From contig NZ_KB894420.1 in assembly GCF_000374445.1 (NCBI RefSeq), positions 62,001 through 126,000 of the forward strand: a stretch of 64,000 nucleotides of DNA. The letters are read 5' to 3'. Under the pieces are notes generated by a model, which had not been told where the DNA came from, made no database searches, and was given only the letters and a program-made list of their open reading frames with translations. Made by a program: the position numbers and the translations under genes. Each line of letters opens with the position of its first letter. Positions within the stretch are counted from its first letter, which is position 1. The stretch comes from Actinokineospora enzanensis DSM 44649. Lineage in GTDB: Bacteria > Actinomycetota > Actinomycetes > Mycobacteriales > Pseudonocardiaceae. Of the stretch, positions 7,250 through 26,723 are shown in pieces.

Positions 7250-8158
7250 ATGACCAACTGGACCTTCGCCCTCATAACCCCGGACGGATTCCTTGGCGGC
7301 GCCTTCCCGCAGATCACGCGCCTGATCGAACAGGCCGGATTCGACATCCTGGTGGCCCGCCCGATCGTTCTCGACGAAGAAACCATCCGCCGCCTCTACA
7401 TCAGCCCACACCCCCGCCCATCAACCGGCGGCGACGTCTTGATACCCGTCGAGTTGTTCGCGGACCTCTACCAGATCACCCCTGGCTGCCTGCTGATTCT
7501 CGGGCGACAGCAAGGCGACGCGATCAACGCCATGCTCCGGCTGAAAGGCCACACCCGCCCGGAACTGGCCCGTCCCGGCACAATCCGCAGCATCGCCGAG
7601 AACGGTTTCCTCAACTACAGCCACTGTCCGGACACGCCAGCGGACCGAGACCGAGAACTCGCCATCCTCACGCCGGACGCCACGAATCTCCAGGCCATAG
7701 CCGAGTCCTCGAACTCGGACCTGACCGACCTGATCGGCCTCCCTTCCCTTCTCGACAGCGCAGTTGTTGTCGGCGAACGCAACGCCATCTCCTTCCCGGC
7801 AACCGCGATCCGCCTACTCCGCCGCGCCATAGCCCTTCTCGCCACCCACGCTGACGAACCGACGCTCACACAACTCCGCACCTGCCGCGCAGCACTGGAC
7901 ACCACAGCTACAAACCTCGACGACAACAACACCAGCCAAGCCCGAATGTCAACCGTCCAAGACGCGATCCCGCAAGCGGCACGCCCATTGACGGTCATCG
8001 CATCAGAACTCGGTCAGCCTGCAATCGCGGAAGCAGTAGAGAACCTGCTCTTCCTGTTCACCACGACCGGTCGCCCTCGGGGAAACGTGTTTCCCTTGGC
8101 TCTTTCCCCTCTGGAACGCATCGTCCTGGACAGCCACGCCCACACCCACCGCCTATGA
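7250..8158 (+). CDS. Nucleoside diphosphate kinase-like domain fused to an unknown helical domain
   Basis: Residues 4-142 of this 302-residue protein follow the NDP-kinase fold: TFALITPDG (canonical LIKPD), PGTIRS with R113 (canonical PGTIRGD), and NYSHCPDTPADRDREL with H125 at the place of the phospho-accepting histidine (canonical VHGSDSPESAEREI). The nucleotide-phosphate-binding lysine of LIKPD is replaced by T10, and the Kpn-loop region is altered. Residues 155-302 are helical, Ala/Leu/Thr-rich and not recognised. The domain plan differs from the single-domain 136-residue housekeeping enzyme. It may be a nucleotide-binding sensor, a histidine phospho-relay or a residual kinase. It may be co-transcribed with the upstream MarR gene. 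Confidence 0.72.
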   Translation: MTNWTFALITPDGFLGGAFPQITRLIEQAGFDILVARPIVLDEETIRRLYISPHPRPSTGGDVLIPVELFADLYQITPGCLLILGRQQGDAINAMLRLKGHTRPELARPGTIRSIAENGFLNYSHCPDTPADRDRELAILTPDATNLQAIAESSNSDLTDLIGLPSLLDSAVVVGERNAISFPATAIRLLRRAIALLATHADEPTLTQLRTCRAALDTTATNLDDNNTSQARMSTVQDAIPQAARPLTVIASELGQPAIAEAVENLLFLFTTTGRPRGNVFPLALSPLERIVLDSHAHTHRL

Positions 8159-8264
8159 AACCGGCTCCGCCACGCCGAGTTCGACTATGAGCGCCACAGC
8201 TATCAGCATGTAGGGGCTGGCCAAATGCTGTCCAGCCGACAGCTGTCGTTGACATGCTTCCCGG

Positions 8265-8483
8265 ATGACGCAGACCGCGGCCACGGCGCTTGCCCAGTTC
8301 CTACTGGTGAATCTGGTGGGCGACCGGGATCGATACGGTGGGCAACGGCGCTTTCGCGGCCGCGATACCACTGCTGACCGTAGCAATTGCTCCGGACGCT
8401 CGCAATCTTGCTCGGCGTCAACACCTTCTGCGGCCAGCGCGACGAACTGCGCGCCCTGCCGGTGTCCGGTAGTCGATGAGCGT
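8265..8483 (+). pseudogene. Possible remnant of an MFS transporter N-terminus
   Basis: The frame from ATG 8265 begins TALAQFLLVNL. After a one-base shift near 8315 it continues as WATGIDTVGNGAFAAAIPLL, which reads like helix 1 of a DHA3-type MFS transporter. Beyond about 8400 no transporter sequence follows and the frames close. I interpret it as a short frameshifted gene fragment. This is a pattern judgement without alignment. The rest of 8159-8684 contains nothing else I can support. Confidence 0.35.
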
Positions 8484-8684
8484 TACCAGTGCGGGCTGGC
8501 GTTGTGCATCCTCCGATCCGGCCGGGGCGGAGGCAGACACTGTACGGGAGGTGTGGTCTTCCGGCGCCAGCGTGGGCGTCCCGCACAGATTGGTTGAACC
8601 AATTGGCAGATGATTGTGGACGGTCGGCCTGCTTTGATGGAGCGGGCCCACACCGGGCCTGGCCGCAGCGAAAGGTGGACCTCC

Positions 8685-8981
8685 GTGAAGTTCGGGAAGA
8701 TGCTCGGTGTCGCGTCGGCGACGATGCTGGCGTTGACGGCCCTGGCCGTGCCTGCGTCGGCGCAGGACTCGCCGTTCTGGTCGTGCCGCAGGGTGCCTGC
8801 GGGCTACACCTACACGATGGTGCGTGCGGACCAGGGATGCGAGCCCCTGTACTACGTCACGCTGCCCCGGACCGGGTTATGGGCGTGCAAGGTGACCGCC
8901 GGGTTCACCTACACCGCCACCCGCCCCAGTTCCAACTGCCGTCCCGACACCGACGTGCAGTACCTGCTCGCCGCCGAGTAG
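8685..8981 (+). CDS. Small secreted protein with duplicated Cys motif
   Basis: This 98-residue precursor starts at a GTG with AAAGGTGG upstream. Residues 1-27 form a Sec signal peptide (basic start, hydrophobic ATMLALTALAVP, cleavage after ASA). The mature part has two similar units, WSCRRVPAGYTYTMVRADQG and WACKVTAGFTYTATRPSSN, with a cysteine after each W-S/A and two more cysteines (GCEP, NCRP), so two disulphides are likely. It resembles small exported proteins common in actinomycetes whose role is unknown. A hairpin terminator follows. Confidence 0.75.
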   Translation: MKFGKMLGVASATMLALTALAVPASAQDSPFWSCRRVPAGYTYTMVRADQGCEPLYYVTLPRTGLWACKVTAGFTYTATRPSSNCRPDTDVQYLLAAE

Positions 8982-8990
8982 CCGCGCCGC

Positions 8991-9016
8991 GCCCCACGGC
9001 CGCGCGGTCGTGGGGC
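8991..9016. terminator. Hairpin terminator after the small secreted protein
   Basis: GCCCCACGGCC and GGTCGTGGGGC pair over 11 positions with one mismatch around a 4-base loop, starting 10 bases after the stop codon. Confidence 0.65.
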
Positions 9017-9114
9017 ACAGCGCCTGCGCGGGGGGCGGGTGTCACCGAACAACGAGTCCTTCCGGCCGTCGAATCCGCCTCGCTGACCGGACGCGTACCG
9101 GGGGTCCCAAGTGC

Positions 9115-9398
9115 GATGCACGTGCGGTGGGCGGGCCGGTTGAGATGCTCTTTTCGTCGGGGTATTCGAGTAGAAGGTCATTCCGAATGCCCTGATCAAT
9201 CGAGGACCAAGAACCAGTCACCCGGCGATACGCGGCCAAGTCTGCCGTCGCGTGGGCCGCGATACCTCTTCCGAGGGCGTTCGGCCCACCCGAACTGGAA
9301 CTGGCTGTACGCCCCTGGGGCTGCTCCGGATCTGCTCCGGAACCGGCCGGCGGAGTCCACAAGGGACATCAAACGAAGATCACCCGCCGACCATGCTT
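9115..9398 (+). repeat. Diverged repeat A (inverted copy at 21416-21740)
   Basis: This stretch aligns along its length with the reverse complement of 21416-21740. Shared blocks include GATGCTCTTTTCGTCGGGG/GGTGCTCTTTCCGGCGGGG, CGGAACCGGCCG and GAAGATCACCCGCCGACCAT. Similarity stops after CCATGCTT. In the other copy that edge lies about 40 bases upstream of the HTH gene start, so this copy looks like the leftover upstream region of a lost relative. The rest of 8982-9623 contains no gene I can support. Confidence 0.75.
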
Positions 9399-9623
9399 TC
9401 GCAGGTTGCTCCAGTCAGCACCACGGACCTGTATCGCTGTGAATCACTCACCAACACGGCTTAAGTTGCTTGGTGTACTAAGGACCCGACTCTCGTTCCG
9501 TGGCCCTCACGATCAGCGGCGTGGTATCCGCCGCTTGCGGCTTGTCCGCGCCCACTGCCGATCATGGGAGAGCGCCACCAGGTCAGCCGCTGCCGGACCG
9601 AGGTGGTGGTATCAGAGGCAGGC

Positions 9624-9757
9624 GCTCGCTTCGGAACCCCAAGTGTGAGCCGACACGCCGGGAGGTTCCGAACCTGGAGTCGGCGTGTCGGCAGGTGGAC
9701 GTGTCAACAGCCATTGGCATTGTCGGTTAGAGTGCGCATAGTGCCTGCTCACGCAGG
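9624..9757 (+). promoter_or_regulatory. CRISPR leader 1
   Basis: These 134 bases directly precede the first CRISPR repeat and match the 134 bases before the second array (21893-22026) without net insertion or deletion. Shared elements are CTTCGGAACC, CCGACACGCCGGGAGGTTCC, CGGCGTGTCG, TGTCAACAGC and CCTGCTCACGCAGG at the array edge. An inverted repeat GCCGACACGCCG/CGGCGTGTCGGC (9649-9660, 9681-9692) is perfect over 12 bp. Confidence 0.8.
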
Positions 9758-9891
9758 CTGGCACCGGCCGTCACCGGCCGGTGAGGATCGCAACTCCTGA
9801 CGATGGCCACACCCGGCGACATCGACAGCACTGGCACCGGCCGTCACCGGCCGGTGAGGATCGCAACTCACGAGCCGGTGAGGATCGCAAC
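9758..9891 (+). CRISPR. CRISPR array 1: two full 37-nt repeats plus one truncated repeat
   Basis: Full repeats lie at 9758-9794 and 9831-9867. The unit begins CTGGCACCGG and ends GTGAGGATCGCAAC, with an internal stem CACCGGCCG/CGGCCGGTG. They flank one 36-nt spacer. After a 6-base residue, an 18-base repeat end (GCCGGTGAGGATCGCAAC, 9874-9891) marks a deletion that removed most of a spacer and half a repeat. The array then runs straight into a 5'-truncated TetR gene. The repeat is identical to that of the array at 22027. The GGATCGCAAC 3' end resembles the GGATTGAAAC ends of type I-B/III repeats, but the subtype is uncertain. No cas genes are in the window. Confidence 0.93.
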
Positions 9892-10212
9892 TACCGGGAG
9901 AACCGGGTCGAGCTGGTCGCGCTGCGCCAGGCCGCGCTGGTCAACGACGACTTCGCGAACCAGCTGCAGGGGATCGTGCGGGCGGAGAGCTCACACCTGC
10001 GCGAGCACCTGGAGTCGATCACCGAGGCAGGCCGCCCCCCGGCGGGCGACCCGGACCTGCTGGTCTCGGCCGTCACCAGCCTGCTGGACCAGTTCGCCTA
10101 CACCTGGCTGGCGGCCGGGGGCGACGGCTCCGGTCGTCGGATCGACGACGACGAAGCCGTCGACACCCTCACCGAGCTGCTCTACTGCGGCCTGGCAGGG
10201 CACCCCGGCTGA
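9892..10212 (+). pseudogene. TetR-family regulator, C-terminal fragment fused to CRISPR array end
   Basis: From the base after the truncated CRISPR repeat the frame encodes about 106 residues of a TetR ligand-binding domain: RENRVELVALRQAALVNDD, then SSHLREHLESI and VTSLLDQFAYTWLAAGG, ending GLAGHPG. The N-terminal helix-turn-helix half is missing, and no start codon with a ribosome binding site precedes the fragment. The join indicates that recombination with the CRISPR array deleted the 5' half of the gene. Confidence 0.75.
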
Positions 10213-10216
10213 GCGC

Positions 10217-10636
10217 TCAGCCCTTCGCCTTGACCTGGTTGATCCGGATCAGGTTGCCCGCGGGGTCGCGGAAGGCGCAGTCGCGCACGCCGTAGGGCTG
10301 GTCCATCGGCTCCTGCACGACCTCGGCGCCGGACGCGGCGACGCGCTCGAAGGTGGCGTCGCAGTCGTCGGTGGCGAAGATGACGCCGCGCAGCAGGCCC
10401 TTGGCCATCAGCTCGGTGAGCGCCTTGCGGTCGGCGTCGGAGGCGTCCGGGGCCGCGGTCGGCGGCTCCAGCACGATCTCCAGCTCGGGCTGGGTCGGCG
10501 GGTGCAGCGAGACCCAGCGCATGCCCTCGAAACTGATGTCCCGGTGGACCTCAAGGCCGAGCGCGTCCCGATAGAAGGCCAGGGCGGCGTCGTGGTCTTC
10601 GACGGCGATGAACGTGTGCGAGAGAGTCAGCTTCAT
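10217..10636 (-). CDS. VOC (glyoxalase/bleomycin-resistance fold) family protein
   Basis: This 139-residue protein is built from two beta-alpha-beta-beta-beta modules. It starts MKLTLSHTFIAVEDHDAALAFYRDALGLEV and ends FRDPAGNLIRINQV, with metal-ligand candidates H (SHTFIAV), E (ELEIVLE) and the second-module EPM. I chose the ATG at 10636 because upstream in-frame residues do not fit the fold. The AraC-type regulator gene ends 10 bases upstream on the same strand. The pair (regulator then VOC enzyme) is common in actinomycetes and is probably co-transcribed. The substrate is unknown. Confidence 0.9.
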   Translation of the reverse strand: MKLTLSHTFIAVEDHDAALAFYRDALGLEVHRDISFEGMRWVSLHPPTQPELEIVLEPPTAAPDASDADRKALTELMAKGLLRGVIFATDDCDATFERVAASGAEVVQEPMDQPYGVRDCAFRDPAGNLIRINQVKAKG

Positions 10637-10646
10637 ACCGGAGACG

Positions 10647-11066
10647 CTACGACCCGGTGGCCCGCTTGGCTTCTTTGTTCCTGACCGGTCTGGTGAACCG
10701 CTTGGCGTAGCAGGCCGGGATGTCGACACTGTCCGCATGCGACCGCGCGCGGTACGCGCTCGGCGTCTCCCCCACCAGCTCGGTGAACCGGGAGCTGAAC
10801 GATCCCAGCGACGAACAGCCGACCGCGAAGCACACCTCGGTGACGCTCAGGTCGCCGCGCCGCAGCAGGGCCTTGGCGCGTTCGACCCGCCGGGTCATCA
10901 GGTAGCTGTACGGGGTCTCGCCGAAGGCGGCGCGGAACGCGCGGGCGAAGTGCCCGGTCGACATCAGCGCGCCGCGGGCCAACGCCGGGACGTCGAGCGG
11001 CTGCGCGTAGTCGCGGTCCATCCGGTCGCGCGCCCGGCGCAACCGGACCAGGTCATCCGTGTCCAC
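10647..11066 (-). CDS. AraC-family DNA-binding protein without sensor domain
   Basis: This 139-residue protein contains only the AraC DNA-binding domain: first HTH VPALARGALMSTGHFARAFR, second HTH LSVTEVCFAVGCSSLGSFSSRF, with the conserved FGETPYSYL and GETPSAYRAR. A GTG at 11066 is the likely start, since the upstream in-frame sequence is not regulator-like. The basic C-terminal extension (AKRFTRPVRNKEAKRATG) is unusual. It lies immediately upstream of the VOC gene and probably controls it. Lack of a ligand domain implies control by abundance or by a partner. Confidence 0.88.
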   Translation of the reverse strand: MDTDDLVRLRRARDRMDRDYAQPLDVPALARGALMSTGHFARAFRAAFGETPYSYLMTRRVERAKALLRRGDLSVTEVCFAVGCSSLGSFSSRFTELVGETPSAYRARSHADSVDIPACYAKRFTRPVRNKEAKRATGS

Positions 11067-11223
11067 TGCACCAGCATCGCACGACCGCCCACCGAATTGT
11101 CCGGTAGTACCGCGAAATGCCACGCTCCGCGATCTTTCCCAGTGTTCAGGACGCCACTTTCGGCTGTATGTCCAGGCACGCTCCGTCGATATCTTCGTCG
11201 GCGCCCACAAGGAAAGGATGGAG

Positions 11224-12717
11224 ATGCGCACGACAGTTCGCACCACCTCTGGTGTCGCCCTCGCCTGTGTGGCGTCCGTGCTGCTCACCAGCATCGCGGC
11301 GGCGACCCCCACACCGGGCGCGCCGGGCGTCGGCGACCCCTACTACCCGAATGACGGAAACGGCGGCTACGACGTTTCCCACTACGACATCCGGCTCACC
11401 TACCAGCCCAGCACCGACCTGCTGTCCGGCACCACGACCATCTCGTTGACGACCACGCAGGAATTGTCCAGATTCGACCTCGATTTCGCGTTGCGGGCAA
11501 AGTCGGTGCTGGTCGACAACGTCCCGGCGACGTTCTCGGCCAACACCGACGGCCACGGCGAGCTGGTCGTGACCCCGGCGCGGCCGTTACCGAGCGGCAA
11601 GCAGGTCACCGTCGCGGTCAGCTACGCGGACACCCCGTCCACGGCCAAGATCGACGGCGTCAGCACCTGGAAGCGGACCCCGGACGGCGCCCTCGGCGTG
11701 GACGAGCCGAACAGCGCCCCGTGGTGGTACCCGTCGAACAACCACCCCACCGACAAGGCCACCTTCGACGTCAACGTGGAGGTGCCGGACGGGCTGTCCG
11801 CGCTGTCCAACGGAACCCTGCTGCGCACCAGCAAGAACCGCGCGGGCTGGACGCGCTGGTGGTGGCGCAGCACGCAGCCGCAGGCGACGTACCTGACCTC
11901 GCTGGAGGTCGGCAACTTCGAGGTGATCCGGCAGACCACCCCGGACGGCAAGCCGTTCATCACTGCCTACGACAGCGACCTCGGCGACTCGCTCGGCGCG
12001 GCGAAGGCGAGCCTGGAGCGCACCCCGGAGATCATCGAGTTCCTGGCCTCCCAGTTCGGTCCCTACCCCTTCGAGGCCCAGGGCGGGGTGGTCAGCGACG
12101 GCATCACCTTCTCCCTGGAGAACCAGACCCGACCGGTGTACGGGTCGGTCAACTTCCGCTACGGGGCGAACACCTCGCTGATCGCGCACGAGAACGCGCA
12201 CCAGTGGTTCGGCGACAGCGTCTCGGTGGGCCGGTGGAGCGACATCTGGCTCAACGAGGGTTTCGCGACGTACGCGCAGTATCTCTGGTCGGAGCACACC
12301 GGCGAGGGCACCGCGGACGAGTTGGCGCAGTACACCTATGACCGTATCCCCGCGACCGACCCGTTCTGGCAGGTGCTGCCGAGCAACCCTGGTCCGGACA
12401 AGCAGTTCGACAACGCCGTCTACGACCGCGGTGCCCTGACCCTGCACGCGCTGCGCAAGGCCGTGGGCGATGACACGTTCTTCCGCATCCTGCGCGAGTG
12501 GACCTCGTCGAAGAAGGGCAAGACCGGCCTGATCTCCGAGTTCGTGGCGTTGTCGGAGAAGGTGTCGGGCAAGCCGTTGCAGGAGTTGTTCCGCACCTGG
12601 CTCTACACCGCCGGCAAGCCTGCCGTCGGTCCGAACGGTCCGTCCTTCGGGGCGGCCAAGGCGTTGGTGGAACCCAAGTCGTTCAAGCAGATCGAGGCGG
12701 CGCACCACCTCGGTTGA
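11224..12717 (+). CDS. Secreted M1-family zinc metallopeptidase
   Basis: This 497-residue precursor has a signal peptide (MRTTVRTTSGVALACVASVLLTSIAAA). It has the M1 N-terminal beta domain and the zinc site HENAH (H322, E323, H326) with the third ligand E345 in NEGFA, exactly 18 residues later. SLENQTRPVYG precedes the site where the family usually has the GAMEN exopeptidase motif; here that motif is not canonical. The ATG at 11224 has AGGAAAGG about 8 bases upstream; the ATG at 11218 is too close. The gene lacks the long C-terminal ERAP-like domain. It is probably an extracellular aminopeptidase. A strong palindromic terminator follows. Confidence 0.92.
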   Translation: MRTTVRTTSGVALACVASVLLTSIAAATPTPGAPGVGDPYYPNDGNGGYDVSHYDIRLTYQPSTDLLSGTTTISLTTTQELSRFDLDFALRAKSVLVDNVPATFSANTDGHGELVVTPARPLPSGKQVTVAVSYADTPSTAKIDGVSTWKRTPDGALGVDEPNSAPWWYPSNNHPTDKATFDVNVEVPDGLSALSNGTLLRTSKNRAGWTRWWWRSTQPQATYLTSLEVGNFEVIRQTTPDGKPFITAYDSDLGDSLGAAKASLERTPEIIEFLASQFGPYPFEAQGGVVSDGITFSLENQTRPVYGSVNFRYGANTSLIAHENAHQWFGDSVSVGRWSDIWLNEGFATYAQYLWSEHTGEGTADELAQYTYDRIPATDPFWQVLPSNPGPDKQFDNAVYDRGALTLHALRKAVGDDTFFRILREWTSSKKGKTGLISEFVALSEKVSGKPLQELFRTWLYTAGKPAVGPNGPSFGAAKALVEPKSFKQIEAAHHLG

Positions 12718-12723
12718 CAGTTC

Positions 12724-12753
12724 GGGGCGGATCACCCGCGGGTGATCCGCCCC
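12724..12753. terminator. Perfect palindromic terminator after the metallopeptidase
   Basis: GGGGCGGATCACCC-GC-GGGTGATCCGCCCC is a perfect 14-bp stem, 6 bases after the stop codon. It can act in both directions and also closes the minus-strand multicopper oxidase fragment. Confidence 0.85.
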
Positions 12754-12759
12754 GCCTGC

Positions 12760-12969
12760 TCACGGGGTGGTCCGGAAGGTCGCCATCATCATGTCCTCGT
12801 GTTCGAGGTTGTGGCAGTGGACCAGGTACCGGCCTGGGTAGGCAGTGAACCGCACGGCGACGTCGACGAACTCGGCCGGGAGCACATCGACTGTGTCCTT
12901 CCGCCCACGTCGTAGGGGCCGCGCGCTGAGTGGAAACCGGACCGCGGCGATCGGCAGGTCACCCGATCC
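12760..12969 (-). pseudogene. Multicopper oxidase, C-terminal fragment
   Basis: The minus-strand frame encodes RKDTVDVLPAEFVDVAVRF followed by YPGRYLVHCHNLEHEDMMM and a stop. HCHNLEHED is the type 1/type 3 copper-ligand motif at the C-terminus of bilirubin-oxidase/CotA-like multicopper oxidases, with M as axial ligand. Only about 60 of some 480 residues remain, there is no plausible start, and the next gene ends immediately upstream. The fragment was therefore left by a deletion. Confidence 0.8.
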
Positions 12970-12974
12970 TCACG

Positions 12975-14273
12975 CTATTCCAGGCCCGCCACCGGCGCCT
13001 CCCCTGACACCCACCGCACCAGCCGCTGCGTCTTCCCCACCTCGACCCGCGGCACCGCCCCGGCCGCGACCACCCGCACGTCGCAGGTCAGCCCCAACCG
13101 TTCGCGCAATGCCCCGCGCAGGTCATCGATCAACCTGGGCACGTCCGCCGTCGCCGTCTCCACGGCCACCCGCAGCTCGGGCCGCGCGGGCTGTCGTCGG
13201 TCCTCCACGACCAGATAGTGCGGACTGACCCGCCCGTCCGCGAGCAGAACGGCTTCGACCTCGGTCGGGAACACGTTCACACCGCGGATGACCACCATGT
13301 CGTCCGTGCGCCCGAGCACCTTGGTCATCCGCCGCCATTGCCCCGAGACCGGCGTGGACAATGCCGCAACATCACCGGTCCGGTAGCGGAGCAATGGCAT
13401 GCCCGTCTTGGTCAATGTCGTGAACACCAACTCGCCGGGAGTCCCATCCGGAACCGGGTTGCCGTCACTGTCGAGGCATTCCGGGTAGAAGTGGTCCTCC
13501 GCGATGTCGAGCATCCCGTCGGACTCGAACGACTCGCACGCGACACCCGGACCGATGATCTCGGTCAACCCGTAGATATCGAGCGCGCGAATACCGAGCA
13601 GGTTCTCCACCTGCACCCGCATCTCGTGCGTCCACGGCTCCGCCCCGAACACCCCGACCCGCAGGCTCGTCGGCACCACCCCGGCCGCCGACATGGCCTC
13701 ACCGAGGTGCAGCGCGAAGGACGGCGTGCAGGTCAGCACGTCCGGCCGGAGGTCCTGGATCAATCGAACCTGCCGCTCGGTCATCCCCCCGGACACCGGC
13801 ACGACGGCGGCCCCCAGCCGGGTCGCCCCGTGGTGAACCCCCAACCCGCCCGTGAACAGCCCATACCCGTACGCGTTGTGCACGACACTCTGCCGGGTGA
13901 CCCCCGCCCCGGCCAATGCCCGCGCCGCCACCTCGGCCCAGACATCCAGGTCATGCGCGGTATAGGGCACCAACGTCGGCCGCCCACCGGTCCCGGACGA
14001 CCCATGCACACACACGACGTCATCGGCCTCGACCGCCCGCAACCCGTACGGGTAATGCTCCCAGAGATCTCGCTTGCCGACCGTGGGCAGCCGATGCAGA
14101 TCACCCAATCGCACGTCCCGCCCGCCGCGCACCCCGCAGTCCCGCAGCCACCGAGCCTGGATGCCACCGGCCGCCAACAGCCGGTCCACCAGCCCGCACA
14201 ACCGCTGTTCCTGCAGTTCACGCCGCTGCTCCAGGCCCATGTCCCGAGCACCCACACCGTCTACCACCGTCAC
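12975..14273 (-). CDS. Phenylacetate-CoA ligase-like adenylate-forming enzyme
   Basis: This 432-residue enzyme is of the PaaK type. It carries the ATP-binding motif VHGSSGTGGRPTLVPYT, the motif YGLTEIIGPGVACE, and RYRTGDVAAL before the hinge, then GRTDDMVVIRGVNVFPTEVE and a C-terminal VGKTQRLVRWV with the catalytic-type lysine. It would activate an aryl acid to an acyl adenylate and CoA thioester. The GTG start at 14273 gives the family length. No paa genes are nearby, so the substrate and pathway are open. Confidence 0.9.
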   Translation of the reverse strand: MTVVDGVGARDMGLEQRRELQEQRLCGLVDRLLAAGGIQARWLRDCGVRGGRDVRLGDLHRLPTVGKRDLWEHYPYGLRAVEADDVVCVHGSSGTGGRPTLVPYTAHDLDVWAEVAARALAGAGVTRQSVVHNAYGYGLFTGGLGVHHGATRLGAAVVPVSGGMTERQVRLIQDLRPDVLTCTPSFALHLGEAMSAAGVVPTSLRVGVFGAEPWTHEMRVQVENLLGIRALDIYGLTEIIGPGVACESFESDGMLDIAEDHFYPECLDSDGNPVPDGTPGELVFTTLTKTGMPLLRYRTGDVAALSTPVSGQWRRMTKVLGRTDDMVVIRGVNVFPTEVEAVLLADGRVSPHYLVVEDRRQPARPELRVAVETATADVPRLIDDLRGALRERLGLTCDVRVVAAGAVPRVEVGKTQRLVRWVSGEAPVAGLE

Positions 14274-14406
14274 CCGGACTGGTCTACACCTTTCCGGCTC
14301 ACCAGGGAAGACCCGCGCAACCCCACCCCCGATTTCTCCCCCACCCGCCCGATGTTGTAGCGTATGCGCAGCACGCCGGGACCAAATCCTGAACGTGCCT
14401 GGTACG

Positions 14407-14479
14407 GGGCTGTGGCGCAGCTGGTAGCGCATCACACTGGCAGTGTGAGGGTCAGGGGTTCGAGTCCCCTCAGCTCCAC
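14407..14479 (+). tRNA. tRNA-Ala (anticodon GGC)
   Basis: The 73-base cloverleaf folds fully: acceptor GGGGCTG/CAGCTCC, D arm GCGC-AGCTGGTA-GCGC, anticodon stem TCACA/TGTGA with loop CTGGCAG (anticodon GGC), T arm AGGGG-TTCGAGT-CCCCT and discriminator A. The G3:U70 pair is the identity mark of alanine tRNAs. The CCA end is not encoded. Confidence 0.97.
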
Positions 14480-14788
14480 CCTAGGGGTCTTACTAGAACA
14501 AGTGCCTGAATGAAGGCCACGAAGTAGGATCGCGACGCCTGAAGGCGTGCAAGGACCACCCGCATCGCGGGTGGTCCTTTTGCTTGCACCCTCCGCGCCG
14601 GTTGCTTCGGCCCGCTGATCTTGGATGGCGTGGAGCTCGCCGAAGGGCTCCCGGAGCTCACCGTCTGTGATCTTGTCGTCCTCGATGTAGAGGGCGTGGA
14701 AGATCGCCTGGTTGAGGAGGCGCCGCTGTTGGTCGCTGCAGAGTGGACGTTTCTGGTGAACCTGGCCCAGCAGTGTCTGGAGCCGCGG
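14433..14788 (-). pseudogene. Site-specific recombinase/integrase, C-terminal fragment at the tRNA
   Basis: The minus-strand frame encodes RLLNQAIFHALYIEDDKITD and GELREPFGELH, which resemble the C-terminal part of large serine recombinases. It then runs in frame through VELRGLEPLTLTLPV into the tRNA-Ala 3' half, where it stops at 14433. Reading into a tRNA end is typical of integrase genes that sit beside their attachment site. A stop at about 14789 closes the frame upstream, and no catalytic domain is present. The fragment marks a former integrated element at this tRNA. Confidence 0.6.
14551..14581 (+). terminator. Rho-independent terminator downstream of tRNA-Ala
   Basis: AAGGACCACCCGC-ATC-GCGGGTGGTCCTT forms a perfect 13-bp stem and is followed by TTTGCTT. 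It lies 70 bases after the tRNA and overlaps the integrase remnant on the other strand. Confidence 0.85.
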
Positions 14789-14791
14789 CTA

Positions 14792-15046
14792 CGCGCCCGC
14801 CTCGTCGACCGGGTTCGCCGCGGGGAGACCGTCTTGGTCGGTGGCGCCTTGCGGGTGAGTCGGCACGGCATCGGGTGTCTCAAGCCAGCCCTCTCGCTGC
14901 CCTGGCATTCGTACGGCGGTGCCACGGTGTCCGACGGCGCGGTCTGGATCCATCAGGCAGGCGCCGGGAAGCCGGTGGTGGCCGTGCCACTGAGCAACCC
15001 CAACGCGGGCTTGATTCCCGCTCTCCTCGTCGCACTCAGGTCGTGA
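14792..15046 (+). pseudogene. DUF6585-like protein, C-terminal fragment
   Basis: The frame encodes RRGETVLVGGALRVSRHGI, then SLPWHSYGGATVSDGAVWIH and VAVPLSNPNAGLIPALLVAL. This resembles the C-terminal PH-like repeat seen in DUF6585 proteins of actinomycetes. The in-frame sequence further upstream lies antisense to the recombinase remnant and does not continue the domain, so the gene appears 5'-truncated at the junction. The bases 15047-15408 hold only an AT-richer stretch (15100-15190) and no gene I can support. Confidence 0.45.
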
Positions 15047-15408
15047 CTGCGGCATCCGCGGCCGTTGAGCCCTTTCGCGTGAACGTGGCCGTGGTCGGCA
15101 AACCGGTCCATTTCATATCTGACACAGGTCAGAAACGCAAAAACGAGTGGAAAATTCGTCCGAATCGAGCGCGTTCACCAGCATGTCCGCTATCGGCGAT
15201 GTCGGCTTTCCACGTTCCCACTCCGCGCGGCTATGTCGGGTAGCGATGCCCGGGATCCGATCCCCCCTGCGGGGCGCTGATCATCCAAAGGTGGTGCTCA
15301 TGGTTGATGCCGGTGCCGGGGGCGGGAGCCTCGCCTGCCCCGTACGCGTCTCCCGCTGCTTGTTCTCGGGTCGATCCGGTCGGGTTCTCGAACAGGAGCT
15401 GGTGTTGG

Positions 15409-16722
15409 CTACCGCCGAAGTCCAGGCCTTGTCTGGGTTGCGTGGACGCGGTGGGCGAGATCGGCCAGGTGCGGCATGGTGTTCTGGCGGGGTGCCTGTC
15501 TCAGGTCGGTGACCAGGGTGCGCACGGCGGCGCGGGTGTGGACCTCGCCGGGTGCGGTGCGTTCGGCGGCGAGCAGGGTGCGGTAGGCGCGTTCGGGGTT
15601 GCCGTGGTCGTACCAGCAGCGTGCGGTGTCGACCAGGACGCGGGCGCGTCGTTCGACGGTGGGGATGACTGCGAGCGACTGGTGATGGGCGTGGGCGAGT
15701 CCGGCGGCGGGGTCGCCGAGGGCGTGCGCGCCGCAGATCCGGTAGCTGACCAGGTTGCCCAGCAGGGTGCGCTGGTGTGGGCTGTTCTCGGCGAGGTGGG
15801 TGACGGCAGCGGCGGCGTCGGCGAGCAGTTCGTGGGAGCGGTCGCGGTCACCGGCCTGGGCGGCGGCGTAGCTGGCCGTGCAGTGCAGCATCCCGTGCAT
15901 CAGTGCGTGGTCGGGGTGCCCGGCGGGGTCGAGGTGGGCTGCGGCGTCGAGGGTCAGGTGTTGGGCGTGGTCGTGGTGTCCGGCGCGGCGGGCCACGGCG
16001 GCGAGCATGCGCTGGGCGCGCGCCAGGACCAGGGGGTCTTCGGCCAGGTGGGCGTGGTGTTGGGCGCGGTCGGCGGCGACCCATTCCAGCCCGGAGGCCG
16101 TCAGCTTGATCAGTGCTTCGGTGGTCAGGGTGTAGGCGGCGGCTGCCAGGGCGTGGGTGTCGGGAGTGGAGGTGCGGTCGGCGGCGGCCTGGGTGGCGGC
16201 CAGCAGCGGGGGCAGTCGGTCGGCGAGCATCAGGTAGTCGCAGCGGGTGAAGGCTTCTCGGGCCTCGGCGATCCGCGAGGCCTGCGGCGGGGCCGGTCCG
16301 GGGTCGGTCTCGGTCGGTCCGAGCAGGAGCGCGTCGCCGAGTGTCCGGGTCAGCAGTCGCGCCGGGTCGATATCGGTGCCGGATCCGGTGGGGAGCCCGG
16401 TCATCATGCCGCCTGCCGCGATCAGGAAGGTGCGGCGGCGCATGGGGTCCTCCTCGGTCGGTGCCGGTCCAGGCTCACTGTAGGGGCGCGGTAGCGCCCG
16501 TGCCGGGAGGACGGGAGCGAGTCCGAACGACTCGACGGGCAGCGCAAGGGCCTCGGCGAAGGCCCGCATCGTCGGTACGTCGCGCAGGGGCACGGCGCCG
16601 GTCTCGTACCGGGATACCGCGCTGGCGTGCAGTCCGCAGCGGCGCCCGAGCTCGGTCTGTGTCCACCCGCGCGCGGTACGGGCCTGGCGCAGGACGGCTC
16701 CGGGGTGGTCCGCGGTGCTCAT
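15409..16722 (-). CDS. XRE-family regulator with C-terminal TPR-like sensor domain
   Basis: This 437-residue protein has an N-terminal HTH_3 domain (residues 8-65: LRQARTARGWTQTELGRRCG, SAVSRYETGAVPLRDVPTM). It is followed by a twin-arginine-like segment MRRRTFLIAAGGM near residue 95 and about 300 residues of alpha-helical TPR-type repeats rich in Ala and His. Such actinomycete XRE-TPR proteins often govern neighbouring biosynthetic or metabolic genes. It diverges from the ribonucleotide-reductase-like gene over a 200-base region containing repeated TGTGCGG half-sites, its probable operator. The RRR-hydrophobic segment may be an internal helix and need not be a signal. Confidence 0.88.
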   Translation of the reverse strand: MSTADHPGAVLRQARTARGWTQTELGRRCGLHASAVSRYETGAVPLRDVPTMRAFAEALALPVESFGLAPVLPARALPRPYSEPGPAPTEEDPMRRRTFLIAAGGMMTGLPTGSGTDIDPARLLTRTLGDALLLGPTETDPGPAPPQASRIAEAREAFTRCDYLMLADRLPPLLAATQAAADRTSTPDTHALAAAAYTLTTEALIKLTASGLEWVAADRAQHHAHLAEDPLVLARAQRMLAAVARRAGHHDHAQHLTLDAAAHLDPAGHPDHALMHGMLHCTASYAAAQAGDRDRSHELLADAAAAVTHLAENSPHQRTLLGNLVSYRICGAHALGDPAAGLAHAHHQSLAVIPTVERRARVLVDTARCWYDHGNPERAYRTLLAAERTAPGEVHTRAAVRTLVTDLRQAPRQNTMPHLADLAHRVHATQTRPGLRR

Positions 16723-16790
16723 CGTCGAGTCCCTTCCCGGGGTCGCTCCGGTGTCCCTCGAACCGGTTCACGGTAGTCGCCGCGCGCCGG

Positions 16791-16840
16791 TGTGCGGGCC
16801 GGATGTGCGGGATCGGCACACGGTGTGCGCGATCCGCACA
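16791..16840. promoter_or_regulatory. TGTGCGG half-site cluster in the XRE/RNR-like divergent promoter
   Basis: TGTGCGG occurs at 16791 and 16804. CCGCACA occurs inverted at 16834-16840, and the internal palindrome GCACAC-G-GTGTGC lies between two GATC blocks. The nested symmetry TGTGCGG-GATC...GATC-CGCACA suits a dimeric HTH regulator, most simply the adjacent XRE protein. Confidence 0.6.
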
Positions 16841-16922
16841 CGCCCCTGCCTCGCGCACCGGCCACGGGATTGTCTTGGGTGGCCCGCTTTCCGTTGGACC
16901 GCAACAGAAAGAAGCCATCGTG

Positions 16923-18623
16923 ATGACCGCTACCACGATCACCGACACCGTCGACCCCGTGGACGCCTATCTGCGTGCCGGGCGCATCATCGCCGCGCAC
17001 GAGACCCGCTCGGACATGATCGAGCGGGTGACCGCCGCCCTGTGCGCCGCCGATTGCGCCTTCTACCCCGCAGGTGCCGCCGCGTTCGGTGCCCGGCTGC
17101 GCCGGGCCATGGACGCGCGGCAGGTGGTGTTCTCCACCCCGATCATGACCAACGCCGGCCGCCACCCCGACCGTGCGCTGGCCGCGTGCGTGGTGCCGCC
17201 AGTGGACCTGCGCGGTGACCTCGCGGCCGTCGCGGCGAGCGTGCACGCCCACCACCAGGCCGGGATGGGCACCGGGTTCCGGCTCGACGAGGTCACCGAT
17301 CCCGTCACGGTGCTGCGTCACCTCAACACCGTCGCCGTCGAGGGGGCGTGTGCCGGTCGGGAGGACAGGCCGGTGGGCAACATGGCCGTCCTGTCCCTGG
17401 ACCACCCCCGCGTGCAGGAGTTCATCGACTGCAAACTCGGCGCCGACACCCGCGGTGAGATCTGGAAGTTCAACATCAGCCTCCTGGTCACCGACGCGCA
17501 GATGCGGGCCGCGGACGCCGGGCCCGGCCGGGAACGTGATCTGCTGTCCGCCGCCGCGCGCGCCGTGCACGCCTGCGCCGACCCCGGCCTGGTGTTCATC
17601 GACCGCCTGGAGGCCACCAACCCCACCCCGCACCTGGGCGCCTACGTCTCCACCGCCCCCTGCGCCGAGGTCGGCCTGGCCACTGGAGAAGCGTGCCAGT
17701 TCGGCTACCTCAACCTCGGTGCCTTCCACCGCCCGGACGGGGACGTCGTGCCGGTCGACCTCGACGCCCTCGCCGAGACCACGGCGTTGCTGGTGCGGGC
17801 CCTCGACGACGCGATCGAGGCCAGCCTCCCGCACTACCCCAGCCCCGTCACCGTGGCCATCATGACCGCCAAACGCAAGATCGGCATCGGGATCTGCGGG
17901 CTGGCCGACTTGTTGTTGACCGCGGGCCTGCCCTACGGCAGCCCGGACGCGATCCGGCTCACCCGCGATCTGGTGGCCTTCGTCAACTACCACTCCAAGC
18001 TGGCCTCGGTCACCCTCGCCGAGGCGCGCGGCCCCGCCCCCGCAGTCGCCGACGGCCGCTCCCGCTACGCCGACCCCGACTTCCTACGCCGCTTCGCCCG
18101 CCCCGAGATCCGCACCGTCACCCCCGCCCACTGGGACACCCTCGCCGACCGCATCGCCACCACCGGGCAGCTGCGCCACGCCCACACCGTCGCCCTGCCC
18201 CCGACCGGGCGCAGCGCCCCCGTCATCGGCGCCAGCACCGGCATCGAACCCCTGTTCCGACTCACCAGCGACCACACCGGCGACCTGCACCCCGCCGCCG
18301 CCCACGCCCTACGCCAGGCCGGGCGCACCGACCTGATCGGCCACATCCACCTCCACGGCAAACTCCCCCGCGACCACGGCCTGCCCGCCCCGCTGGCCGA
18401 CCTGCTGGCCACCGCCACCGACCTCGAACCCGCCGCCCACCTGGCCATGACCGCCGCCGCCCAGGCGGGCGTCGACGACGCGGTCAGCAAGACCGTCAAC
18501 CTGCCCGCCGACGCCACCGTCGAACAAGTCCACGACATCCTGACCACCGCGTGGCGACTCGGCTGCGCCGGGGTCACCGTCTACCGCGACGGCAGCCGCG
18601 GCACCCAACCCAAACCCCTGTGA
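16923..18623 (+). CDS. Divergent class II ribonucleotide reductase-like protein
   Basis: This 566-residue protein has the ten-stranded barrel of the adenosylcobalamin-dependent reductase family. It shows FSTPIMTNAG, a first redox cysteine C89 in AACVVPP, GMGTGF, FNISLLVTD, NPTPHLG, the radical cysteine C247 with E249 in APCAEV, a second redox cysteine C258 in EACQFGYLNL, IGIGICGLADLL, SAPVIGASTGIEPLF and the C-terminal VTVYRDGSRG. The family's N-P-C-G-E motif reads A-P-C-A-E, so the catalytic-site asparagine is missing. It is much shorter than the usual 700-950 residues and lacks a C-terminal zinc domain. It may reduce an unusual nucleotide or act in a specialised pathway with the downstream NUDIX enzyme. 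Confidence 0.82.
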   Translation: MTATTITDTVDPVDAYLRAGRIIAAHETRSDMIERVTAALCAADCAFYPAGAAAFGARLRRAMDARQVVFSTPIMTNAGRHPDRALAACVVPPVDLRGDLAAVAASVHAHHQAGMGTGFRLDEVTDPVTVLRHLNTVAVEGACAGREDRPVGNMAVLSLDHPRVQEFIDCKLGADTRGEIWKFNISLLVTDAQMRAADAGPGRERDLLSAAARAVHACADPGLVFIDRLEATNPTPHLGAYVSTAPCAEVGLATGEACQFGYLNLGAFHRPDGDVVPVDLDALAETTALLVRALDDAIEASLPHYPSPVTVAIMTAKRKIGIGICGLADLLLTAGLPYGSPDAIRLTRDLVAFVNYHSKLASVTLAEARGPAPAVADGRSRYADPDFLRRFARPEIRTVTPAHWDTLADRIATTGQLRHAHTVALPPTGRSAPVIGASTGIEPLFRLTSDHTGDLHPAAAHALRQAGRTDLIGHIHLHGKLPRDHGLPAPLADLLATATDLEPAAHLAMTAAAQAGVDDAVSKTVNLPADATVEQVHDILTTAWRLGCAGVTVYRDGSRGTQPKPL

Positions 18624-18649
18624 CCGTGTCGATCACGACCCTGCCCCGA

Positions 18650-18721
18650 GGTGAGGATGACCTCCACCGACCACGTACTCGACACACCATGCACCCGGTG
18701 GCCCGGTAGGTCATCCTCACC
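18650..18721. other. Long inverted repeat between RNR-like and NUDIX genes
   Basis: GGTGAGGATGACCT (18650-18663) and AGGTCATCCTCACC (18708-18721) pair perfectly over 14 bases, and inside them CCACCG pairs with CGGTGG. The 44-base loop is larger than in ordinary terminators. It could be a terminator, a processed RNA structure or a regulator site for the NUDIX gene. Confidence 0.6.
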
Positions 18722-18802
18722 CAGTCCGGCCCCGACGGGACCCGCGTACCGTGGGCCCGCCGCGCCACCCAGCGGATCCAACGTCGGGAGACAGGAGAAA
18801 CC

Positions 18803-19300
18803 ATGGTGGATCAGTGCATCAAGGACACCCGACACGACCGCTACCCCGTCGCCGCCCACCTGATCCTCACCCACCCCACCACCGGCCACGTACTGCTGAT
18901 GCGACGCGACGGCACGTACTACGGCCGACATCGACTCGCCTTCGTGGCCGGACACGTGGACACCGGCGAGACAGTCACCGACTGCGTGGTCCGCGAGTCC
19001 GCCGAGGAGATCGGAATCGGACTCGACCCCGCCGACCTGACCCCAGCCGGTGTGATGTTCCGCCGCTCAGCCGAGCCCCGAGTGGACTTCTTCTTCACCG
19101 CTCACACCTGGACGGGAGAACCACGCATCCGCGAACCGCACAAGTGCAGCGAGCTCCTCTGGGCCGACCCCGACAACCTGCCCGCCGACGTGCTCGACTT
19201 CGTCCCCCGCGCGCTCGACAACACCCGAACCCAGCGGCACTTCGACGAGTTCGGCTGGACCACCACACCCGCCCTGCCAGCCACCCCTCCCCGCCGCTGA
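18803..19300 (+). CDS. NUDIX hydrolase
   Basis: This 165-residue protein has a complete Nudix box GHVDTGE...RESAEEIGI (G-x5-E-x7-R-E-x2-E-E-x-G), which binds Mg2+ and cleaves nucleoside-diphosphate-linked compounds. The ATG follows GGAGAAACC. The segment LMRRDGTYYGRHRLAFVAGH is typical of MutT-like subfamilies acting on NTPs or nucleotide sugars. Placement after the RNR-like gene suggests nucleotide metabolism or sanitation, but the long inverted repeat between them may separate transcripts. Confidence 0.93.
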   Translation: MVDQCIKDTRHDRYPVAAHLILTHPTTGHVLLMRRDGTYYGRHRLAFVAGHVDTGETVTDCVVRESAEEIGIGLDPADLTPAGVMFRRSAEPRVDFFFTAHTWTGEPRIREPHKCSELLWADPDNLPADVLDFVPRALDNTRTQRHFDEFGWTTTPALPATPPRR

Positions 19301-19374
19301 AACAACACCCACGACACGGTCCACGTGCTCCGACAGGACAAGCACTGCCAGCATGCTCTTGTCATGATGGTGGT

Positions 19375-20126
19375 GTGACTCGTGTGCTTGTGCTCGGCGG
19401 CTCGTGGTTCCTTGGTCGTGCTGTCGTCGAGGAGGCGCTGGCACGAGGCTGGCAAGTGACCACGTTCCGCCGCAGCAGGTCAGGGGCGGACGTGGGCGAC
19501 GTTCGCGTCATCCACGGTGATCGGACCGTGCACGCGGACCTGACGCGGTTGGCCGCGCACGGGCCTGGGATGCACTCGTCGACACCTCCGGCTATGTTCC
19601 CCGCGAGGTGGGCCTCGCCGCTCGCGCACTTGAGCCGGTGGTCGGTCGGTACGTGTTCGTCTCCACGGTGTCGGTGTACGAGGGTTGGCCGGTGCAGCCC
19701 CTGACGGAGGAGTCCGCGGTCCTGGACTGTCCCGCGGATGTCGGGGCCGACTTCGGGTACGACGGGGACCCTGGCCCGTCGATCTACGGGTTCACCAAGG
19801 CCGGCTCGGAGCGCGCGGTCCTGGAGGCGTTCGGTGATCGACGAGTCGCCGTGCTGAGACCGGGAGTGATCCTCGGGCCACGGGAGTATGTCGGCAGGCT
19901 TCCGTGGTGGCTGCGCCGATTCGAACGAGGCGGGCGGGTGCTCGCACCGGGACGTCCGGAACGGGCTGTGCAGCCCGTCGATGTACGCGACGTCGCCGCC
20001 TTCGCGCTGACGACAGCCACCGGTCCCACCGGAACGTTCAACGTCACAGCCACGGGAGATGACAGCCGCGACGAAAGATCAGCAACGAAGAGCCCCGCCA
20101 GGCCACTACACGGTCGACTCATGTAG
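19375..20126 (+). pseudogene. NAD-dependent epimerase/dehydratase, frameshifted and 3'-truncated
   Basis: A GTG at 19375 opens a Rossmann start TRVLVLGGSWFLGRAVVEEA (the GxxGxxG nucleotide-binding loop is modified to GGSWFLG). Near 19567 one base is missing: restoring a T in CCTGGGAT joins the frame to DALVDTSGYVPREV and on through VFVSTVSVYEGWPV and the YGFTKAGSE active-site tyrosine/lysine. After GTFNVTATG the sequence departs from the family and stops, about 60 residues short. Both defects suggest decay; the first could also be a sequencing error. Confidence 0.8.
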
Positions 20127-20922
20127 CCACGATGGTTGCCTCCTCCAATTCGTTCACCACATCGCCCGTGGCGCGCTGGACGGCGAGCTGCTCCTCGAAC
20201 TCGGCCCGGACGATCTTGACGAGCTGGCGAGCCCGAGTGGTCCCTACTCCGAGCCGGATGCGCAAGGCATCAGCGGATATCGGCTTCTGGTGAGCCGCAC
20301 GGTGAACCGCGTCTTCTCGCCGAGCCTGAGCCAAGAGAACCTCCGGCGTGCGCCCAACGGCTACTCGCCCGCCACCTCGCGGCAACACGTCCTCACCAAG
20401 TTCGGGCCTCGTCTCCGGCGCACCCTCATTCGCGTCCGCATGGACAGCCAGCCCAGGTCGACCGACTCCGGACGCGGCTGACACACGAGTTGTAGCGCCA
20501 ATCGCTTGCAAGAGGCCAGGACCGACCTCCGCCCAGCCGATCAACAGCAGCGGCCCTACCGCATCGAACGCCGCCTTACCGAACTCGCCCGCGACCAGAG
20601 GCTCTGCCACGTTCAGCGCGAGCGTGACCGCGCTGGCGAAGAGCAGCAACCGACGAGCAGGTCGCAGCACGTCCGGCGAAACACCAGTGAGGGCCAAGTG
20701 CCGGATGCCCAGCAGCAGCCCGAGGATCGAAAGATCAACCGCAGGAGCCACCAGCGGCGCGACCCACGCTGGCACACCAAGCCGGAGCGCGAGATTGAGG
20801 ACGTTGCCAAAACCGAACAGGAAGGCCAGACCAACGACCACGCCCATGATCACGGTGACAGCCTGAATTACAGCAGCCCCGTCTGACCCTGATCGCGTCG
20901 ACACAGCTGCCCCGCGAGTCAT
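20119..20922 (-). CDS. DUF2637 membrane protein with C-terminal HTH
   Basis: This 267-residue protein has four membrane helices ([70 protein letters not shown]), the DUF2637 signature with D and E in the helices. A C-terminal helical region [21 protein letters not shown] looks like an HTH. DUF2637 proteins are carried mainly by actinomycete plasmids and integrative conjugative elements. Its ATG overlaps the stop of the upstream HTH gene (ATGA), so the two are coupled. Its end converges with the broken epimerase gene, overlapping by 8 bases. Confidence 0.82.
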
Positions 20923-21377
20923 CGAACATCACCTGCTTCGACGCGCGGACGCCCGTGGGTGTCTCGGGTGGCAATGCCGCGTTCACGCAGTTTGCTCAGC
21001 ACAGTGGTGTGGGCGACGCCGAGATGGTCGCCGACTCGTACCAGCGACCAGCCGAGGCCATAGAGGCGGATGGCATCCTCGACCTGCTCGGTCGAGAGAC
21101 CACGGCGGCGCATCAACACACCGTTCCGGTGGAGAATGCTACTGGCCGTTCGCCGTTCGATGCCGAACCGGTCACCGAGCTCGTACACCGTCGCACCGGA
21201 CCGGTAGCCGGCGATCAGCTGTTCGACTTGCTCGGTGCTGAGTTGCCGGGCGCGGCCGGGGCGGTCGCGCTTGATCGACGGCGGCTCGGGCGTGTCGAGG
21301 CTGGGGAGCTTCTCGCGGAGCTCTTCCAGGGCTTTGACCTGGTATTTTATGTTCGAGTAAGGCCCCCTAACCTCCAC
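20919..21377 (-). CDS. Double-HTH DNA-binding protein, resolvase-like
   Basis: This 152-residue protein contains two Hin/resolvase-type helix-turn-helix units in tandem: [19 protein letters not shown] followed by [20 protein letters not shown], and [19 protein letters not shown] followed by [20 protein letters not shown]. The N-terminal part is short. The likely start is a GTG at 21377, though the frame stays open upstream. It is translationally coupled to the DUF2637 gene and preceded by repeat B. It is probably a mobile-element regulator or the DNA-binding remnant of a recombinase; no catalytic serine domain is seen. Confidence 0.7.
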
Positions 21378-21415
21378 AATGGAATTTTGTGCGTGAATCA
21401 CCCGTTGACCTGTGG

Positions 21416-21740
21416 AAGCATGGTCAGCGGGTGATCTTTGTTTGGTGTCCTCTGTGGACTGTGTCGGCTGGTTCTGGAGCGGATTCGGAGCGGTCGTCAT
21501 CCCGGGATGGAATGGGTCGTAGGTCGGCTCCAGGTCGAGCGGTCCGGGTGTCTTCGGGACGGTGGCATCTCGGGCCGTGAGTGTGGCGACCTTGCTGCTC
21601 CATGCGCGCGGACGAAGACGTGGACGCTTGTTGTCGGGCGGCCGGTTCCCGCTTCTCGATCGGAACGTCGGCATGGCTTCCCATTCGAATGCCCCGCCGG
21701 AAAGAGCACCTCGAACGATCCACCCGCCGCACACGCACCG
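21416..21740 (-). repeat. Diverged repeat B (inverted copy of 9115-9398)
   Basis: Read on the minus strand, this region aligns with 9115-9398, including GGTGCTCTTTCCGGCGGGG, CCAGAACCAGCCGACA and AAGATCACCCGCTGACCATG. It lies directly upstream of the HTH/DUF2637 operon and may carry its promoter. The overall similarity is partial, so the copies are old. The remaining bases of 21378-21892 hold no gene I can support. Confidence 0.75.
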
Positions 21741-21892
21741 ATCCGGTCCGCGCGACTCGTCCTGCGTACCGAACAGAACCCCGACGGTCACCGAGCAGTC
21801 CTCACCCCCGTTCCCGGCCACGGGCGACGTGCCACGGCGACACGACTGGTATCGCGAGCTCCGTCCACGCGAGAGTGTTGTCGGGTGCCCGT

Positions 21893-22026
21893 ACGCGCTT
21901 CGGAACCTCCAGTGCGGGCCGACACGCCGGGAGGTTCCGAACCACACCTCGGCGTGTCGACCCCGGACCATGTCAACAGCTGTTGATAAAGTCCGGCCGC
22001 GTGGACAAAACCCCTGCTCACGCAGG
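21893..22026 (+). promoter_or_regulatory. CRISPR leader 2
   Basis: These 134 bases match leader 1 (9624-9757) in length and in spaced conserved blocks, ending in the identical CCTGCTCACGCAGG before the first repeat. The internal inverted repeat GCCGACACGCCG/CGGCGTGTCG (21918-21929, 21950-21959) is retained over 10 pairs. Confidence 0.8.
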
Positions 22027-22211
22027 CTGGCACCGGCCGTCACCGGCCGGTGAGGATCGCAACTGACGCGGTTCGGAAGGCCAGGTCGAGGGCTCATCGC
22101 TGGCACCGGCCGTCACCGGCCGGTGAGGATCGCAACCACCAGCTCGCGCACGAGTTGGAGGGCCGGTTCACCCCCTGGCACCGGCCGTCACCGGCCGGTG
22201 AGGATCGCAAC
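22027..22211 (+). CRISPR. CRISPR array 2: three 37-nt repeats, two spacers
   Basis: Identical repeats (CTGGCACCGG...GAGGATCGCAAC) lie at 22027-22063, 22100-22136 and 22175-22211, with spacers of 36 and 38 nt. Repeat sequence and orientation are the same as in array 1, 12.2 kb away, so both would be served by one Cas system elsewhere. The last repeat is intact, with no sequence decay. The few spacers suggest low acquisition or repeated loss. Confidence 0.95.
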
Positions 22212-26352: not shown

Positions 26353-26572
26353 CCAGGATCGCAGAACTCGGCCGGGTGTAACCAGTGCCAGTCACGGCGG
26401 GCACCCGGACCTGTTGACAAATCAAGGACAACGCTGGGGCGGCGGGCGGAAACAAAGGCGGTGGTCCACGCTCCCCGCGCGAACCACCGCCTTCCCCCCG
26501 CCCCCGATCCATTACCCGGCCCCGACCGGGCGACCGACGGGCGGGACACCGCGTGGTGCCCCGCCGGGTCGT

Positions 26573-26629
26573 TCACTGCAGCGTGACCAGGGTGCCCAGC
26601 ACCCACACCGGCATCGAGTGGCTCTCCAT
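26573..26629 (-). CDS. Candidate 18-residue peptide gene
   Basis: An ATG with a near-perfect ribosome binding site (GAGGAGGTGGAAGCC before ATG) opens an 18-codon frame, MESHSMPVWVLGTLVTLQ. It is the last of three tiny frames around the Crp gene, all on the same strand. The peptide is short and moderately hydrophobic. It might be a leader peptide, a signal or a chance frame; the strong ribosome binding site is the main support. Confidence 0.4.
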   Translation of the reverse strand: MESHSMPVWVLGTLVTLQ

Positions 26630-26723
26630 GGCTTCCACCTCCTCACCGTGCCGCGGGCAGCCTCCAGCCCGCGTCGAACTCGGTTGTTACCGCGAGAAAG
26701 TCGCTAGAAAGAAGATTCCCGGC

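Follow-up and report, generated by a model that had tools for sequence, protein, structure and literature searches.

How two short arrays of clustered regularly interspaced short palindromic repeats (CRISPR), each behind a well-kept leader and neither accompanied by a cas gene, came to lie 12 kb apart is the question raised by a stretch of 64,000 nucleotides from Actinokineospora enzanensis DSM 44649. This stretch, called the window throughout, covers positions 62,001 to 126,000 of contig NZ_KB894420.1 (C18:62001-126000 in our numbering), and the source genome (G000) is an 8.1-Mb draft of 87 contigs that is 99.01% complete. According to our analysis, the arrays are very probably relics of a type I-C system whose cas operon was lost, standing at a rearranged tRNA locus, and thereby represent a known kind of relic. 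An earlier interpretation made from the letters alone (the sequence-only reading) had taken both arrays for satellites of one Cas system elsewhere and had suspected that the intervening 12 kb arrived or were duplicated with them.

Array 1 (9758-9891, forward strand) consists of two full 37-nt repeats at 9758-9794 and 9831-9867 with a single 36-nt spacer between them, and ends in a 23-nt repeat stub with two mismatches and no proper spacer. Array 2 (22027-22211, forward strand) contains three full 37-nt repeats and spacers of 36 and 38 nt. All five full repeats are identical across 37 nt and both arrays have the same orientation, so that the description given by the sequence-only reading, with leaders of 134 bases and one and two full spacers, was accurate. 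Near-identical repeats, unique spacers of similar length and a leader in front are found in both cases; these are genuine CRISPR arrays of one lineage. A genome-wide search with a 23-nt core of the repeat, allowing up to three mismatches, returned six matches, all of them at arrays 1 and 2, with none on the other strand and none for the reversed control. The leader likewise occurs in two copies in the source genome, both in the window, and a plasmid search with the leader gave no match. In named genomes, the repeat core was detected in five stretches with one match each (four from Bradyrhizobium and one from Devosia). That the units are not CRISPR at all and represent a dispersed leader-like repeat element might be argued from the presence of the leader in many genomes and from 5 of 44 collected leaders that have no recognisable first repeat, one of these entering undetermined bases. 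However, with two copies only in the source genome and a repeat behind 39 of the 44 leaders, we regard this as next to impossible.

Leader 1 (9624-9757, forward strand) and leader 2 (21893-22026, forward strand), each 134 bp long, show 76% identity over 131 nt, or 77-80% when the repeat is included, and their middle part is alike at 26 of 44 positions. They score 98.6 and 103.3 bits, respectively, against a type I-C leader profile that was built from seven leaders, with these two among them. A query consisting of leader and repeat matched 40 of 390 genomes of the bacterial family, distributed over 17 of 46 genera, some of the matches being to the repeat only. The profile was run against 51 loci, taken from G004, G013 and 34 of the 40 matching genomes; at a cut-off of 30 bits 44 leaders in 31 loci were kept and nine weaker matches were dropped. 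Cas7c or Cas1 was also found within the fetched stretch in 12 of these 31 leader loci. In a tree of the leaders, those of the window are sisters (support 99/94). Judged by sequence comparison, leader and repeat belong to a type I-C leader-repeat lineage.

The relatives show which genes go with this lineage. There, the leader family adjoins the operon cas3-cas5c-cas8c-cas7-cas4-cas1-cas2, and in the congener G014 the genes are assigned by NCBIfam to Cas3, Cas5c, Cas8c, Cas7, Cas4, Cas1c and Cas2. I-C Cas7 (TIGR02589) is present in 42 of the 390 family genomes, and combining both lists places it in 27 of the 40 leader-repeat genomes compared to 15 of the 350 others; 13 leader-repeat genomes, the source genome among them, are without it. 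Close relatives within the genus do possess cas genes, with some Cas1 in 7 of 16 genomes and I-C Cas7 in 3 of 16. Since leader or repeat matches were obtained in seven of these 16 genomes, arrays without the effector recur in the genus. Neighbouring leaders of at least 30 bits within one fetched stretch of up to 20 kb (64 kb for the window) form 13 pairs, of which 12 have the same orientation. Six pairs enclose a cas operon, with 8.8-12.7 kb from start to start, five in the same and one in the opposite orientation (Cas4 was not detected in the enclosed operon of G063). Seven pairs enclose no cas match, and the pair in the window, 12.3 kb apart, is one of these. G014 also has an array beside tRNA-Ala that is preceded by a 3′ fragment of cas2 (58% over 50 aa, E = 2e-12), an arrangement which array 2 resembles. 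As a separate observation, a 3,016-bp, 99.97% copy of the leader, cas3 and the start of cas5c of G004 lies at 7744-10759 of locus L164 (G004:C26:878001-898000); it ends a few bases from the leader-repeat junction, without an array, and may be due to duplication or to an assembly effect.

In the source genome itself, Cas1 (PF01867) had no match in a search that was positive in 9 of 14 control genomes, and I-C Cas7 (TIGR02589) had none in a search positive in 3 of 14. The statement that no cas gene lies in the window was confirmed by tblastn with I-C seeds (Cas3, Cas5c, Cas8c, Cas7c, Cas4, Cas1, Cas2) and I-E seeds, the Cas families to which this search was confined, with a best E of 0.025. No cas remnant was accepted there, and cas5c and cas8c, searched in this stretch only, gave no match. 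Within the limits of a 99% complete draft and of the three families searched in it, the arrays are without cognate cas genes; of a type I-C system, cas7/csd2 and cas1 had no match, with cas2 and cas4 not searched genome-wide.

The core model of Cas3 exceeded its cut-off once, on contig C5. At C5:35607-43131 (locus L160) a type I-E effector operon is located, in which cas3 and cse1 form one frame of 1487 aa, followed by I-E Cas7, Cas5 and Cas6. Because no Cas1 was found, it looks like an effector set without adaptation genes. Repeats of I-E type with a period of 61 nt were seen on C7, C16, C34 and C39, away from this operon. Its effector genes, cas3-cse1, cas7, cas5 and cas6, could suggest that the operon makes use of the two arrays, but with I-E-like repeats elsewhere, a 37-nt repeat type that adjoins I-C operons in the relatives and no Cas1, such a use is extremely improbable. 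Active satellites, which would depend on an I-C operon acting in trans from a plasmid or from DNA missing in the assembly, would fit the identical repeats, the distal arms shared by both leaders (described below) and a draft of 87 contigs. Against them stand the missing Cas1 and I-C Cas7 in a 99% complete genome, the low number of spacers (one and two) and the decayed stub at the end of array 1, and we consider them unlikely. From the sequence-only reading, the common lineage and a leader of the kind found beside cas1-cas2 in relatives are retained, whereas the Cas system elsewhere in the genome is not, as the only Cas3 above the cut-off belongs to the I-E operon. Since neither Cas1 nor I-C Cas7 was found and the sole cas operon detected is of type I-E, a different subtype, the arrays are to be regarded as orphaned I-C arrays; a cognate system to which they could be satellites did not come to light.

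None of the three spacers had a convincing match in phages and plasmids, and one 20-nt exact core of each was without match in IMG/VR. The best match, of spacer 1 to a Streptomyces mirabilis replicon (28 of 31 nt, E = 0.008), was not accepted, and all others had E of at least 0.1. A role as guard arrays, as reported for type I-F orphan arrays of E. coli (PMC8616872), would mean that spacers directed against incoming I-C cas genes or islands are the reason for their retention. The shortness of the arrays, the well-kept leaders and the I-C operons of congeners would suit this idea. However, a comparison of the spacers with 241 loci, including cas operons of congeners, yielded no exact match above 15 nt, so that in the loci compared the spacers do not match cas genes of related strains; together with the negative results for phages, plasmids and IMG/VR this makes a guard role very improbable.

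A duplication or joint arrival of the 12 kb with the arrays is not supported either. Apart from the leader-array units, the only long repeat listed across the interval is one 84-nt inverted repeat (83%). Its left arm (9323-9406, reverse strand) lies near array 1 and resembles sequence adjoining tRNA-Ala in G013 and G014; its right arm (21408-21491, forward strand) lies about 400 bp before leader 2. Measured in one common way, leader length is 121-132 nt wherever a first repeat could be recognised (39 of 44 leaders), and as equal length is thus a property of the leader family, it is no sign of a 12-kb duplication together with the leaders. Furthermore, the genes for a glyoxalase (reverse strand), an AraC-type regulator (reverse), an M1 peptidase (forward) and an AMP-ligase (reverse) at 10217-14435 and tRNA-Ala(GGC) at 14406-14480 (forward strand) are represented by orthologues in congeners, where they are arranged differently. 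A glyoxalase-regulator query matched 16 of 16 genomes, with E below 1e-100 in 14 of 15 congeners, and a ligase-tRNA query gave the same picture; G010 was weak in both. Seven congeners have the M1 peptidase in the regions fetched from them. In 11 of 15 congeners no more than about 3 kb separate the AMP-ligase from the homologue of C18:44565-46988, compared to 28 kb here. The fetched regions include M1 peptidase, glyoxalase and right-flank genes together in six congeners (G002, G003, G005, G007, G008, G014); in these, M1 peptidase and glyoxalase point the opposite way with respect to the right flank, and in the window one array lies at each edge of this moved block. A single inversion between the 84-nt arms was rejected as the whole history, for it does not restore the congener order. 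A two-gene block at 25330-27610 is inverted relative to the window in G003, G005, G008 and G014, and the single gene of it found in G002 keeps the window orientation; these differences mark the region as prone to rearrangement.

The tRNA-Ala gene itself resembles an integration site. Some kb downstream of it, G007, G012, G013 and G014 carry a further copy of its 3′ end (43-48 nt, 98-100%), as at the ends of integrated islands, and copies of this kind flank the I-C operon and its arrays in G014. There, a helix-turn-helix (HTH) gene and an integrase-like gene precede one array, both integrase models being under the Pfam cut-offs. Among the seven leader- or repeat-bearing genomes of the genus, four (G000, G011, G013, G014) have arrays near this same tRNA-Ala locus. 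The order of arm and leader seen at the right 84-nt arm and leader 2 also occurs beside tRNA-Ala in G014, and because of this common order array 2 would occupy the same kind of slot as the G014 array behind the cas2 fragment. Behind tRNA-Ala, the stretch 14481-21400 is probably a decayed island with an HTH gene, ribonucleotide reductase, NUDIX and an epimerase-like open reading frame (ORF). Its att-like end near 21350-21385 was called by eye and is not outstanding in a scan. The 12 kb comprise genes of the chromosome, an integration hot spot at tRNA-Ala and, probably, a decayed island, rearranged in comparison to the congeners. Within the presumed island, an ORF at 16341-18623 contains a ribonucleotide reductase barrel domain, and an HTH ORF at 20919-21428 (reverse strand) reaches into the right 84-nt arm, with two Pfam HTH matches just below the cut-offs. 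Directly after array 1, the end of an open frame at 9892-10212 resembles by eye a truncated regulator, perhaps of TetR type; this ORF had no Pfam match and no convincing tblastn match in the congener loci searched.

The relation of repeats to leaders may indicate when the operon was lost. In 12 of 19 within-genome leader pairs, including that of the window, the repeats differ at 0-2 positions; between genomes the median difference is 8 of 37 (722 pairs, minimum 0), and in each of 275 between-genome pairs with leader identities of 0.72-0.86 the repeats differ at one position at least. As the repeats of the window are identical beside leaders of only 76% identity, it appears plausible that one Cas machinery was shared for a long time and was lost late in comparison to the divergence of the leaders, possibly recently. 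Exchange between arrays could also keep repeats alike. Several points weigh against the interpretation as relics of a lost I-C operon. No cas remnant was found in the window, so that a former operon between arrays 1 and 2 is something we infer rather than demonstrate. Leaders of the same genome mostly cluster in the tree, in which 25 of 41 inner branches are weak, and for this reason the arrays of the window cannot be matched to the upstream and downstream arrays of relatives; upstream and downstream leader types common to all genomes were considered and rejected, as the tree does not bear them out. In the other 7 of the 19 pairs (G014 twice, G070, G201 three times, G377) the repeats differ at 4-16 positions, hence the two arrays of a pair need not have the same repeat. 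Finally, Cas5c and Cas8c were searched in the window only, and as the draft of 87 contigs, about 99% complete, is not closed, it may still lack an I-C operon.

The sequence-only reading had pointed out a conserved inverted repeat in the leaders; an alignment of 43 leaders contains two interleaved inverted repeats with the arm order TTCGGAACC - CGACACGCC - GGTTCCGAA - GGCGTGTCG. In the window this distal leader element lies at 9630-9690 and at 21899-21959 (both forward strand), with TTCGGAACC facing GGTTCCGAA and CGACACGCC facing GGCGTGTCG, and all four arms are intact in both leaders. It is located about 68-128 bp ahead of the first repeat and is kept across genera of the family. In a test of arm pairing, 87.3% of cells pair, compared to 26-43% when the partner is slid. 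Three of five measures (cells paired, cells changed on both sides, covariation score) lie above all 500 shuffles, a result that related sequences can reach without real structure. The two others, pairs changed on both sides (193 of 500) and further pair types (233 of 500), lie within the shuffles, and changes on both sides are confined to 5 of 19 pairs. Base pairing is not favoured as the reason for the inverted repeats. They are rather read as a conserved protein-binding sequence, although pairing may still play a part. By analogy to types I-E and I-F, where leader motifs and IHF act according to two reports (PMC12259127, PMC8616872), the distal element may be a protein docking site. It is conceivable, though we would not count on it, that it constitutes a docking site not yet described, at which a host factor or Cas4-Cas1-Cas2 would bind during I-C adaptation and which would let one cas operon feed several arrays of the same orientation. 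A literature search by titles and abstract openings, which is no proof of absence, gave no description of such an element.

As judged from the relatives, the intact state would have been one cas3-cas5c-cas8c-cas7-cas4-cas1-cas2 operon, once near these arrays and serving two leader-array units of the same orientation. In line with the roles of these Cas proteins, the leader with its distal element would position Cas4-Cas1-Cas2 at the first repeat, and Cas5c would cut the shared repeat. In this lineage the operon would then have been lost and the tRNA-Ala region rearranged. What remains would be a frozen memory, namely two short, presumably inactive arrays separated by 12 kb, for which neither adaptation genes nor I-C effector genes were detected.

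Orphan arrays are common. The arrays described here share with type I-C CRISPR-Cas systems the kind of leader and repeat found beside I-C operons and, with several relatives, the paired arrays of the same orientation that there surround an operon. They differ by the missing cas gene in the window, the missing Cas1 and I-C Cas7 matches in the genome and their one and two spacers. For comparison, the I-C repeat of Bacillus halodurans is given as 32 bp (PMC6519985), versus 37 nt here. The orphan I-F arrays of E. coli, reported to derive from cas loss (PMC8616872), are likewise short and devoid of cas genes while relatives keep the genes; in the window, however, no spacer match to cas genes was found, and the arrays, two in number, adjoin a tRNA gene of the integration-site kind. 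The repeated tRNA-Ala 3′ end in congeners and the integrase-like gene before the G014 array are features shared with integrative elements at tRNA genes, whereas among the window ORFs searched no integrase was recognised and the island is a presumed one. The relatives show different stages side by side, namely paired arrays that still enclose an operon, an array preceded by a cas2 fragment, and arrays standing bare, and the order of cas loss thereby becomes testable. For the way in which type I-C systems find their integration site in this bacterial family, the distal leader element offers a concrete candidate.

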